A DNA stretch of 64,000 nt from Acrasis kona (Eukaryota > Heterolobosea > Eutetramitea > Acrasida > Acrasidae): the NCBI GenBank assembly GCA_026419775.2, contig JAOPGA020001095.1:1-64000 (forward strand), given 5' to 3'. Shown piece after piece: positions 50,208 through 55,456 of this stretch. A program made the translations under genes and the position numbers. The notes below the pieces were generated by a model, which worked only from the letters and a program-made list of their open reading frames with translations, was not told where the DNA came from and did not search any database. Each line of letters begins with the position of its first letter. Position 1 is the stretch's first letter.

Positions 50208-50585
50208 CTAACCAAGTAAACTAGCGTAAATAGTAGCTTTGCACTTGTCAGTCATAGGATGTTCATCAAAGTCAAAACCACTTTGGTGTAGTGTGAACGG
50301 AAGACCCCAGAATTTGAAAGAGCCCTTTATGAGTGATCCAGGCAGCATGTTGCTTTGAATCAGATCATTAATTGATCGCATTGCATCATAAGTGTATGGC
50401 AAATTTTTGCGACAATTTAGAAGCACATGGGATTGGTCCTCATATTGCAAACAACACCTCGGGCATTTGGTGTTGCTAATTTGGTTGTTGTTGTCCCAAT
50501 ACTGCATTTTAGAGAGTGTGCAGAGTTGATTGGAACGGAGACGGAGGAGGAAGATCTGTTTAGGTCGTGAACCGCTTATCTGCTG
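50208..50585 (-). mobile_element. Non-LTR retrotransposon (LINE) reverse-transcriptase C-terminal relic
   Basis: About 125 codons open after a TGA at 50586-50588. The peptide IFLLRLRSNQLCTLSKMQYW precedes a zinc knuckle CPRCCLQYEDQSHVLLNC of form C-x2-C-x8-H-x4-C, which is the hallmark of the extreme C-terminus of LINE reverse transcriptases (R...N...L...C..C....E...H.L..C). The remaining reverse transcriptase is absent upstream, as expected for a 5'-truncated insertion, and no poly(A) tail or target duplication was identified. Family call by pattern only. Confidence 0.65.
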
Positions 50586-51299: not shown

Positions 51300-52043
51300 A
51301 TGTTGGCGATGGACCACACCACGAGGCCAAGGAGACAATCCACAGTTACAGTCAAGGAGCAAGTAAACCATACCTTAAGCAAAGACGAGCTAGTGATGTT
51401 AAGGCATACATTCAGTCTATTTGACAGAGACGGTGATGGCATCATCACAGCTACGGAGCTAGGAAGCGTTCTTAAGTCCTTGAACCAAGGCATCTCTCAT
51501 GCTGACGTAAAGGCACTTATACATGAGGTGTCCAATTCTGATGTGATATCATTTGATGAATTCGTAACCTTGATGAGAACTCCAGCTTCTCAACCAAACC
51601 AATCACGCTCCACAATGAGGAGAGGTTCATTACCCGGGTCACCCAAGACTCCAAAAACACCAACCAGCCCAACTACTGGTTTATTTGGCGCTTTTAGCAA
51701 AAAAGCTACGATATCTCCAACAACTCCCAAAGCGCCAATTAAACCAACTTCCAAACCATTCTCAATCTCGAACCTTTTCAAGAAGAAGATTGTAGAAGTG
51801 GAAGATGATGTTGTGGAGGACATGGACCCACTTGATGAGATGAGACAGGTCTTCAAAGTGTTCGATATTAATGGCGACGGATTTGTTAGTATTTCAGAAA
51901 TGAAAAACATTATGAGTAAATTAGGCCTTGGAATCATGATGAATGAGGACGAACTTAGGAGTTTGTTCAAGCTTGTGGATAAGGACGACGACGGCCACAT
52001 TAACTTTGATGAGTTCGTGCAACTCTTTAGCATGAGCTCATAA
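51300..52043 (+). CDS. Calmodulin-like EF-hand protein with a long linker
   Basis: 247 aa, single exon. Four EF-hand positions in two pairs. EF1 (DRDGDGIITATE) is canonical, EF2 is degenerate (NSDVISFDEF, loop shortened), and EF3 (DINGDGFVSISE) and EF4 (DKDDDGHINFDE) are canonical. The halves are separated by about 80 residues rich in S, T, P and K (PGSPKTPKTPTSPTTGLFG) with several SP/TP sites, instead of calmodulin's short helix. Calcium binding at three sites is expected. The linker suggests regulation by proline-directed kinases or target tethering (inference). The first ATG (51300) has a second in-frame ATG three codons on. Confidence 0.85.
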   Translation: MLAMDHTTRPRRQSTVTVKEQVNHTLSKDELVMLRHTFSLFDRDGDGIITATELGSVLKSLNQGISHADVKALIHEVSNSDVISFDEFVTLMRTPASQPNQSRSTMRRGSLPGSPKTPKTPTSPTTGLFGAFSKKATISPTTPKAPIKPTSKPFSISNLFKKKIVEVEDDVVEDMDPLDEMRQVFKVFDINGDGFVSISEMKNIMSKLGLGIMMNEDELRSLFKLVDKDDDGHINFDEFVQLFSMSS

Positions 52044-52144: not shown

Positions 52145-53461
52145 TTAATTTATGTTTGACAATTGCTCTTCACTTGCTTCGTCGTTTAAGAACATGTACT
52201 CTCTCGTAGAATTTCCAAACCTAACAAGGTCAAACTGTTTGATTTGATAGTAACGAGAGTCATCCACCCTCGCACCATTTAAAAACGTCCCATTCGTGCT
52301 CGCAAAGTCAATCAAATATGGCTTTATTGTCAAATCAGCCACTTGGTTGTACGCTAAAATTCTTTTATCATTAGGATTAGCCAAAACACTCCTAAACACA
52401 ATGGCAGCATGTTGTTTGCTACAAGAAGGATGGTCGGTCGGAATATCGACAGCATTCCTGTCTCTACCAAACCGAAAAGACACTTTATTCAGCAACACTG
52501 GGTTCTTTTGGTCAGTTACATCCTGACCATCTTTGCTAATATACACACGCCAAACAGGCTTAGAAGGTGGTGGACGAGCTTCTACTGGCTCCGTCCACTT
52601 TAAAACAACACCAGTGTTTTCCATTTTTAATGACTGCTCTGCAAGTTTTCCTGACGGCTCAAAATTTGGTAGCTCTTTTATTATGTCCTCTCCTTTGGTC
52701 TTGTCTTGGTCTCTTGCTTCTTGCTCAGGATTGCCCCACACTTCTTTCCTACCACTTCCACCTCCTCTTCCTCCTCTTCTATCCTCATTTCTTATTTCTT
52801 GTTCTTCTTCTTTCTTGACTGGTCTTCCATACTTTTTTTCTAGTTCCTCCTTTCTTACTCTTTCCTTCTCCTTTTTTTGTAACTCAAAAATCAAATTTTG
52901 TTTTTCTCGATCCAACTTTGTTTCTAAATAAGCTTCTGCATATGTCCTTTTTGTTGACCTTTCGGCATCAGTTAATTTCTTTTTTGAGAAAGGATCGAAG
53001 CGTTCTGGTGATAATTGTCTTTTTCTCCATCTTGCTCTATATGAATCCTCTCTGTCTGCAATACGAGATGTTCTTGTTGATGCAAAAGGATCTTCTGCTT
53101 CTTTACCGATGATTTCTGCAGTTTCGTTTAGAAATTTTTGTGGAGCACCGTAACGATCTTTAACTGCTTTTCGCCAATTCTCTGATTCATCTTCTTCGTC
53201 GTCATTTAGTTTTTTCACATCAGCTAAATTTTTAAACCCCTTGAATTCATTCTTGTTCAATATAGATGTTGGTTCGTATTGGTCTTCAATCACTCTTTCT
53301 GTTGATCCATATAAATGTGCGTCATAGGTTGATTTTGTTGCGGAAAATGCAACACCGCGCGAATCTGTTGATAATCTTTCTCTTCGCAATTTTTCATTTT
53401 TTATTCGTTCCTCCTCGTCCTTTTTCCGCAGCCTACCCTCTAAATCAACCCCACCAAACAT
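52145..53461 (-). CDS. SF3B1-N-like segment fused to SNIP1/Pml1 FHA domain
   Basis: 438 aa. The C-terminal 140 residues are an FHA domain of the SNIP1/Pml1 type (RES complex, nuclear spliceosome): FRFGRDRNAVDIPTDHPSCS, KQHAAIVFR, KPYLIDFASTNGTFLNGARV, REYMFL. The N-terminal 190 residues are not SNIP1-like. They resemble the N-terminus of the U2 factor SF3B1: DRYGAPQKFLNE, DPFAS then SRIADREDSYRAR and QLSPERFDPF, then RTYAEAYLETKL. The middle is a Glu/Lys helix and a GRGGGSG loop. Both parts act at the activated spliceosome, where Pml1/Bud13 contact Hsh155/SF3B1. The FHA call is firm; the SF3B1 link is from memory of conserved motifs. Confidence 0.83.
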   Translation of the reverse strand: MFGGVDLEGRLRKKDEEERIKNEKLRRERLSTDSRGVAFSATKSTYDAHLYGSTERVIEDQYEPTSILNKNEFKGFKNLADVKKLNDDEEDESENWRKAVKDRYGAPQKFLNETAEIIGKEAEDPFASTRTSRIADREDSYRARWRKRQLSPERFDPFSKKKLTDAERSTKRTYAEAYLETKLDREKQNLIFELQKKEKERVRKEELEKKYGRPVKKEEEQEIRNEDRRGGRGGGSGRKEVWGNPEQEARDQDKTKGEDIIKELPNFEPSGKLAEQSLKMENTGVVLKWTEPVEARPPPSKPVWRVYISKDGQDVTDQKNPVLLNKVSFRFGRDRNAVDIPTDHPSCSKQHAAIVFRSVLANPNDKRILAYNQVADLTIKPYLIDFASTNGTFLNGARVDDSRYYQIKQFDLVRFGNSTREYMFLNDEASEEQLSNIN

Positions 53462-53533: not shown

Positions 53534-55456
53534 ATGGCAGCAAGTGGGAAGGGCAAGAAGCAGAAGACACCAACACCGCAGACACCAACAAAAAACAAGA
53601 TATCAAACTACTTTAATGTTGTAAAGAGTCCTATGAAGGACGCCACACCCAAGAAAGATTCAATTCAGGATATCCGCCCAAAGGAAATGCTTACTGTCGC
53701 TAATAATACCGACAACAATGCCGATAGTGATAACGATGTTGTGAAGAATAGTCCAGTTAGTGATGATGATGACATCTTCAATTTCACTTTCGATTGTATT
53801 ACCACAAAGGCAGAAGACCAAAAGATTTTATCTGAACTTGACGACTTGATTCAATTAAACAAGAACGCCCTAAGCGACACTAAGAGATATTATGAATTAA
53901 AAAGAAGAAGAGAGGAAGGCGAGGAGGAAATCAAACAATTAGAGTTAACAAAGGTCAAAGAAAGAGAACAAGAGCTAAATGGCAATCTTGTCATGCCAAC
54001 AGCCGCCTTCTTCGACGACGATGACGACGCCTCTAGAGATTTAAATAAAGTCACCAAAATGGCCAGGGACACTTCTGTTGGCTTTATTTCATGTGAAGAT
54101 TCAATGCTGAAGCAAGTTCAAGTATACAATCATGTTGGTTTTAAAAGTAATGACTTCACTATGAACCTATCAAATGATGTAAGAGTCTGTATTGCAAACA
54201 ACAAAAGAAGGACAAGGTCACAAGAGGAGGTTCAACTTGTACTGAAGGAACTCACTACATTCATTAACGACGATGACCTAAGCACAGGTTACTTCATGAC
54301 TGGCATGAATCTTTTGAAAAGAGAAGATGTCAAGCTAGACGCCCAACTATTTTTGGACGCATTTGAAAAGATGAACCTATTCAGCACCACACCAAGCGAC
54401 CAACAATTACTAAACGAAGCAGAATCGAGTACGGTCATTATTAGAAACCTAACAAACCTAATTGGAGTGCTAATATCACAACTGTATGATTCAGATTACA
54501 GCACTACGCACATTCTTAAACTGTTGGAAGCAAGTTTATTCATTGAATGCTGCGATACTTTGAATTGTCCACAAAATGCTTCATTGATGTTCTCCTTATG
54601 CGACGTGCTTTCGACACGTTCAGTACAAGAAGAAGAAACACAAAGCAAAGTGATTTCGTCGTTCGTCAAGATTGTCGACATGGGAATACATGAAATTAAT
54701 CTCGAAGGCTGCAAGTACAAGTACATTAACAAGCAAGCCTATCAATTAACCACCAGCGTACTTAATCGTCTTGCATCAAGATTACCAAACTTTATGAATC
54801 GGGTCAGGAGGGCAGTAAACTTACAAGTCATCACACAATTATTGAATATTGAAGCGAGCATTCAACAAGAGGACACACAAATACCAACAAACATTCCAAA
54901 AAGAGAATTAGAATCAAAGAGGGTTCAATTCGACCAATCATCATCTTTCAAGATTACCGACGATGGCAGCATGTGCAGCGATGAAACATTTGTTGTTCTT
55001 GTTTTGGACGCCATTTACAATAACCTTGACCAAGCATCCATGCTAATGAAGAATTCCGTGACCGAACGATATGCACTTTTGAGCGTGGCCTATCAGGGAA
55101 TGGATCTCTTTACAAGATCGTTTTGTATTGACCAAGTAACTGCAAATCAACAATGGTATGATGTCCCATCAATAACGGGTCAAGAACAAAATCAAGCACA
55201 AGAGGTGGGAAAGAAGCGGAAACGCGAGGACAATGACACCGAAACACTATTGAGCAAAGTAAGAAGCAGATGTGAGGAACTTGGTAGAATGATTCAAGAT
55301 CGCAAACGATATGCAGCGAGTTCTCCGCTTGTAGTTCTATTTTCGACATTTATACAAGAGGCTTGTGTTTGTCTGAAATTTACAATAGATGAAAGGATTC
55401 TTCGGAATGAGAGCCGAAAGGAGAAGAAGCAACAAAAACTTGTATTCTATAAATAA
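53534..55456 (+). CDS. Unknown nuclear protein with PIP-box-like motif (SLF2/Nse6-like?)
   Basis: 640 aa, single exon. The N-terminal tail is basic and SP/TP-rich (KTPTPQTPTKNK). KNKISNYF near residue 20 resembles a PCNA-binding PIP box with Lys in place of Gln. An acidic patch and a coiled region (YYELKRRREEGEEEIKQLEL) lead into about 430 residues of helical repeats. A bipartite-like basic signal (KKRKRED) is near 560. The layout (motif-rich tail, coiled coil, helical body) recalls SLF2/FAM178 and Nse6, which tie SMC5/6 to damaged DNA, but I see no decisive sequence match. Its 3' end is 16 bases from the pyrophosphatase stop. Confidence 0.7.
   Translation: MAASGKGKKQKTPTPQTPTKNKISNYFNVVKSPMKDATPKKDSIQDIRPKEMLTVANNTDNNADSDNDVVKNSPVSDDDDIFNFTFDCITTKAEDQKILSELDDLIQLNKNALSDTKRYYELKRRREEGEEEIKQLELTKVKEREQELNGNLVMPTAAFFDDDDDASRDLNKVTKMARDTSVGFISCEDSMLKQVQVYNHVGFKSNDFTMNLSNDVRVCIANNKRRTRSQEEVQLVLKELTTFINDDDLSTGYFMTGMNLLKREDVKLDAQLFLDAFEKMNLFSTTPSDQQLLNEAESSTVIIRNLTNLIGVLISQLYDSDYSTTHILKLLEASLFIECCDTLNCPQNASLMFSLCDVLSTRSVQEEETQSKVISSFVKIVDMGIHEINLEGCKYKYINKQAYQLTTSVLNRLASRLPNFMNRVRRAVNLQVITQLLNIEASIQQEDTQIPTNIPKRELESKRVQFDQSSSFKITDDGSMCSDETFVVLVLDAIYNNLDQASMLMKNSVTERYALLSVAYQGMDLFTRSFCIDQVTANQQWYDVPSITGQEQNQAQEVGKKRKREDNDTETLLSKVRSRCEELGRMIQDRKRYAASSPLVVLFSTFIQEACVCLKFTIDERILRNESRKEKKQQKLVFYK

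Follow-up and report, generated by a model that had tools for sequence, protein, structure and literature searches.

The N-terminal region of SF3B1 has been described as largely disordered, and the structural basis of a switch involving it as poorly understood (PMC13332222). In the human Bact spliceosome, an SF3B1 N-terminal helix-loop-helix lies between the RT finger/palm and the linker of PRP8 and touches SKIP and the RES complex, and the p14-binding stretch of SF3B1 contacts SNIP (PMC5835773). SF3B1 and PRP8 are reported to frame a cavity in which RES sits, with RES binding SF3B1, PRP8, SKIP, and CWC22 (PMC10208982). SF3B1 residues 121-177 were resolved in the pre-Bact-1 map, residues 30-100 were placed on PRP8-RT by prediction and partial fitting in the pre-Bact-OTS state, which comes earlier and lacks RES, and SNIP1 enters at the interface of SF3B1 394-430 with SF3B6 (PMC13332222). 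Spliceosomal parts that are joined in one lineage can also occur separately in another, as described for RBM22 and yeast Cwc2 and Ecm2 (PMC5835773).

Acrasis kona is a social amoeba that belongs to the heteroloboseans. The gene described here, an Acrasis kona SNIP1/Pml1 with an SF3B1-derived N-terminus, occupies 52145..53461 on the minus strand of the window (the whole 64,000-nucleotide stretch of DNA that was analysed). It encodes 438 amino acids and a stop in a single uninterrupted frame. Searches of PDB chains with phmmer gave human SNIP1 (5z56_X, E 6e-33) and Arabidopsis DDL (3vpy_A, E 1.9e-30) as the nearest chains to the C-terminal half. Two other FHA families, NIPP1 (E 5.3e-08) and Kanadaptin, were rejected as the identity of this protein since both matched more weakly than SNIP1 in the same search. 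Residues 330-416 (52214..52474, minus strand) form an FHA domain (Pfam PF00498, 53.3 bits), which is the sole Pfam family at E<=1 in the protein. No HEAT repeats or SF3B1 family domain were among its Pfam matches; those are carried by a separate Acrasis SF3B1 (P0121). Directly N-terminal of the FHA domain, residues 265-296 (PNFEPSGKL...GVVLKWTEPVEAR; 52574..52669, minus strand) are a conserved SNIP1 segment that aligns with human SNIP1. By their position, they may correspond to the stretch that binds Snu17/RBMX2 in Pml1, whose residues 22-42 are described as binding Snu17 (PMC4515762). The protein is therefore like SNIP1/Pml1/DDL in its FHA domain, its conserved pre-FHA segment, and its top matches to solved SNIP1 and DDL, but human SNIP1 aligns only from residue 217 on, and the first ~205 residues here are SF3B1-like.

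The SF3B1-like part was examined with an HMM built from SF3B1 only (108 of the 115 rows P0126-P0240, the motif bearers), which is independent of SNIP1 sequences. The conserved block (YGAP...DPFA...IADRED.Y...SPER.DPF...RTYAE) spans residues 102-209 (52835..53158, minus strand). It scored 74.1 bits with this HMM. Residues 1-270 were also shuffled 2000 times, and the highest score among the 1999 shuffles reported was 10.0. With P0129 as the reference, the block corresponds to about residues 84-180 of mammalian SF3B1 and thus covers SF3B1 121-177. The N-terminal half also matched SF3B1 in the phmmer search of PDB chains (5ife_C, residues 71-237, E 1.8e-12, 50.5 bits). When a profile of nine SNIP1 N-termini was compared with a profile of 26 SF3B1 N-termini (every fourth of 103) by hhalign, they aligned over 167 columns at 32% identity, with a probability of 99.9% and an E of 1.8e-31 (one-target comparison). 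These results agree with the preliminary description, which had seen an SF3B1 N-terminal motif block on a SNIP1/Pml1 FHA protein. It had pointed to residues 90-190 for a profile search, and the likeness to SF3B1 turned out to be wider. Residues 5-204 (head and block; 52850..53449, minus strand) are collinear with SF3B1 residues 8-176 in the hhalign alignment. The head part of the window protein was not significant when scored alone (4.4 bits vs 7.7 for the best shuffle), and among the relatives a clear head was found only in P0007 (35.5 bits) and P0011 (23.1 bits). Judging from the alignment, the fusion probably took in the entire front of SF3B1, including the head. The fused part resembles the N-terminal region of SF3B1 (SF3b155/Hsh155) in its collinear head and block with the motifs in identical order, but it sits on another protein, is not followed by RW/TP and HEAT repeats, and is absent from the Acrasis SF3B1.

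An AlphaFold2 model of modest confidence (mean pLDDT 67.3, pTM 0.38; block mean pLDDT 65-93 over residues 134-211) has helices at residues 134-137, 140-147, 165-170, and 174-211. Residues 134-211 (52829..53062, minus strand) are thus a candidate helix-loop-helix, with which the modelled helices are in keeping at that modest confidence. We infer that the block is the N-terminal helix-loop-helix described in PMC5835773. The available part of PMC9935549 contains nothing on the block.

Other SNIP1 proteins also carry this segment. The first homologue search found 361 proteins, of which the best 120 were used, and a SNIP1 profile search found 279, of which again the best 120 were taken. In the latter, 14 proteins scored at least 410 bits and the next scored 292, a gap that is partly by construction as 13 of the 14 top rows had made the search profile. 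Since those 13 block-bearing SNIP1s built that profile, the SF3B1-only HMM was the independent test. With this HMM, 13 of 177 SNIP1-like proteins reached at least 10 bits and the other 164 remained below. Thirteen of the 14 top rows passed 10 bits (except for P0012, <6 bits), and nine SNIP1s besides that of Acrasis scored >60 bits. The block is shortened in both P0009 (13.2 bits) and P0012. Altogether, 13 SNIP1-like proteins besides that of Acrasis carry the segment. The close SNIP1 relatives P0002 and P0003 have the block. Twelve other SNIP1s align with the window protein with an identical order of block and FHA domain. The name of P0011 is transcript-style ('ORF type:complete'). In P0005, a WD40 protein (coatomer-like by eye) is joined to a block-bearing SNIP1; by eye this is probably a misjoined model, and it was included in the counts and trees. 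Furthermore, several SNIP1-like proteins (P0056, P0057, P0059, P0065, P0068, P0073, and others) have a KH domain (PF00013) in addition to the FHA domain, and the FHA tree places P0056 and P0073 close to Parachlorella and Nannochloris. The KH domain is a second domain gain on SNIP1.

In the FHA tree (57 rows of 174 excised domains), a branch (97/90) set 12 of the 14 block-bearing SNIP1s and P0015 apart from the remaining rows. P0015 is a block-less SNIP1 from a transcript-style EukProt entry within the Acrasis-type FHA group. We take its accession prefix, GECH01, to be that of Pharyngomonas kirbyi, and if so, P0015 could date the relocation within Heterolobosea. The other two block-bearing sequences, P0013 and P0037, sit elsewhere and grouped with P0285 (99/97). 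They have the block only, with no head seen, and P0013 does not begin with a start methionine and may be cut off. P0285 is probably a truncated block carrier, starting in what appears to be the end of the block after a translated intron. In the AU test, one clade for the 14 block-bearing rows was rejected (p 0.0026) when P0285 was counted as block-less, but one origin was not rejected with P0285 added (p-AU 0.089) or with both P0285 and P0015 added (0.32). The tree of the block itself lacks resolution, and only a weak branch (68/0) separates the SNIP1 blocks, as a set, from the others.

The Acrasis kona assembly (37.35 Mb, 1021 contigs) was searched in six frames. The SF3B1 gene lies on contig C384 and encodes 1056 amino acids in one frame. 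Its product begins with MSGLGSEDRKRKSQWEEQ, at the RW/TP repeats and about mammalian residue 195; it lacks the N-terminal segment and retains both the SF3B1 family domain and the HEAT repeats. A divergent gene lies upstream, with its ATG 51 bp away. P0122 and P0123, close relatives of the Acrasis SF3B1, likewise begin at the repeats. Residues 1-164 of P0142, an SF3B1 from another organism, matched the window SNIP1 in the assembly (E 1.3e-18, with 44% identity across query 33-160), and beyond it only a chance-level match on contig C289 (E 0.66). A search of the assembly with the Acrasis block returned the window gene and then only a chance-level match on contig C79 (E 0.11), which reads as a cullin by eye. 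Neither was accepted as a second copy of the block. Because the segment is absent from the Acrasis SF3B1 and its single clear copy in the assembly is on SNIP1, it appears to have moved from SF3B1 to SNIP1 and not to be an extra copy, as far as the assembly shows. The preliminary description had left a choice between a partner's segment added in cis and a segment moved from SF3B1 altogether. The check it had proposed was whether the SF3B1 of this organism lacks the segment, and the Acrasis SF3B1, which starts at the RW/TP repeats, does lack it. Within the limits of the assembly, the move is thus the right reading for Acrasis, and an extra copy in cis the wrong one. Among the likely partners, BUD13 was found in the assembly. 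SF3B6/p14 has a match with 62% identity at C100:74136-74438, with one in-frame TAA inside that is either an intron or the mark of a broken copy. A search for the SKIP family, run with no positive control, gave no match.

We consider it probable that SF3B1 was split before the RW/TP repeats in the Acrasis lineage, that its N-terminal piece was fused to SNIP1, and that this piece, the peg on PRP8 and SKIP, is now supplied in trans. The break in the SF3B1 gene would lie in the disordered linker, near mammalian residue 180-195, and the part before it was presumably then joined in frame to the N-terminus of SNIP1. With the break between the block and the repeats, no folded part need be cut, and the remaining SF3B1 would start at the RW/TP (ULM) repeats and retain the p14-binding region and the HEAT repeats. 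Most likely, SNIP1 would deliver the PRP8/SKIP peg in trans; it could do so since the peg and SNIP1 are neighbours and the peg is on a long disordered SF3B1 linker. SNIP1 would then be both a member of RES and the dock to PRP8 and SKIP, and the SF3B1 HEAT part would be held through p14-SNIP1 and BUD13 contacts. The early docking of human SF3B1 30-100 on PRP8, before RES, sits badly with delivery by SNIP1. If Acrasis follows the human order, the spliceosome would have no peg before SNIP1 comes in; otherwise, the order would differ or RES would be a standing part of U2.

On the SF3B1 side, the best 120 of 4299 homologues were examined. The block match was absent in nine of these 120 (P0121-P0126, P0130, P0131, and P0224), and 109 scored at least 30 bits, which is by construction as nearly all of them are seeds of the HMM. 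The sequences of P0175 and P0228 begin inside the block with most of it missing, and they were excluded from the losses. In the HEAT tree, P0224, which is the SF3B1 of Acanthamoeba castellanii str. Neff, formed one group (100/99) with P0126 and P0131. These three Acanthamoeba-type sequences, all of them predicted proteins, keep the head (17.2, 36.3, and 27.6 bits for P0224, P0126, and P0131) without the block, and they are thus the complement of the SNIP1 P0037, which has the block and no head. The Acrasis-type SF3B1s have neither. The block-bearing P0142 adjoins the Acanthamoeba type (87/88) and is not next to the Acrasis type. There were two block-less SF3B1 groups in the HEAT trees, but a single block-less clade was not rejected, with a p of 0.15 for 26 rows and of 0.10 for 21 rows (five of the 26 dropped for having no anchor). 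The complementary SF3B1 and SNIP1 pieces suggest a second relocation, with a different breakpoint, in the Acanthamoeba-type lineage, which is a good lead and not a result. A broader proposal, which we put forward tentatively, is that the peg was handed to SNIP1 at least twice, as the whole N-terminus in heteroloboseans and as the block only in the Acanthamoeba type. The peg would then be a self-contained module whose essential work is done in trans, either as RES joins or later. At activation, SNIP1, and not SF3B1, would anchor the U2 snRNP to PRP8 and SKIP, and the U2 snRNP may include RES permanently. As one origin is not rejected when P0285 is included, we consider this broader proposal less likely than not.

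The TP sites that face SNIP1 in human SF3B1 (RTPAR..TATPTP) also differ among these sequences. The first TP is lost in Acrasis, P0122, P0123, P0125, and P0130, all of which keep at least one later TP, and the pattern is kept in P0124 and the Acanthamoeba type. The lost first TP would be consistent with a changed docking of SNIP1, a fit that proves nothing.

Alternatively, an ancient duplication may have placed the segment on both SF3B1 and SNIP1, after which the SNIP1 copy disappeared from most lineages and the SF3B1 copy from the heteroloboseans (and from the Acanthamoeba type). The side-by-side placement of the SNIP1 blocks in the block tree and the two AU tests in which one origin stood are in line with this history. 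However, it requires many losses of the SNIP1 copy, given the small fraction of SNIP1-like proteins that pass the SF3B1-only HMM, and no organism was seen with both copies, the only SNIP1 and SF3B1 pair from the same named organism being that of Acrasis. We regard such a duplication as rather unlikely.

A drifting leftover, or a segment with a new role in a spliceosome that manages without the SF3B1 N-terminal peg, seems still less likely to us. The shortened blocks of P0009 and P0012 are what would be expected of a leftover, but the scores of the Acrasis protein and of the nine other SNIP1s above 60 bits speak for a kept function.

We think it very improbable that the arrangement is a gene-model or assembly error, with the SF3B1 block of Acrasis on an exon that was overlooked or left out of the assembly, and an artefactual join in SNIP1. 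The assembly is in 1021 pieces and the Acrasis genes were read from genome sequence alone, and the three Acanthamoeba-type SF3B1s are known only as predictions. A misjoined gene, which the preliminary description had named as a possible undoing of the fusion, was nevertheless not borne out, as the SNIP1 frame is open throughout, the 12 other SNIP1s have the identical order, and P0011 bears a transcript-style name. Moreover, the six-frame search of the assembly gave no other block, and the truncated SF3B1 start is repeated in P0122 and P0123. The Acrasis SF3B1 may also receive its segment from a distant upstream exon or by trans-splicing. Finally, chance or convergent motifs are hardly conceivable, since even in a region rich in charged residues with individually short motifs, the collinear hhalign columns, the identity to P0142 residues 33-160, and the shuffles far below the real score mean that HMM, phmmer, hhalign, and assembly search all rule against them.

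We found no report of an SF3B1 N-terminus on SNIP1 in the titles and abstract openings searched, a coverage that leaves subscription journals and preprints mostly outside. The individual parts are known, and the arrangement, a SNIP1 with a segment of another subcomplex's subunit and a matching loss from the donor, is new to us. It is like RBM22 and Cwc2/Ecm2 in that spliceosomal parts are joined in one lineage and apart in another, but there two proteins were joined, whereas here a piece appears to have moved between subcomplexes and to have been lost from its donor. The relocation would be a natural experiment in which the job of the peg is separable from that of the RW/TP repeats. It suggests that the peg need not share a chain with the HEAT repeats, predicts that the peg acts where SNIP1/RES sits, and lets one ask where and when the front end of SF3B1 works.

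The SNIP1 gene lies between two genes on the plus strand of the window. On one side, 51300-52043 encodes an EF-hand protein of 247 amino acids, in which a stretch rich in Ser, Thr, and Pro separates the EF-hand regions at the two ends. On the other side, 53534-55456 encodes a 640-amino-acid protein with no Pfam match; 72 bp separate its start from that of SNIP1, which is on the opposite strand. By eye, KISNYF at the N-terminus of this protein resembles a PCNA-binding PIP box. Also by eye, a short open reading frame at 50208-50507 (minus strand) looks like the cysteine-rich end of a reverse-transcriptase protein from a retroelement.
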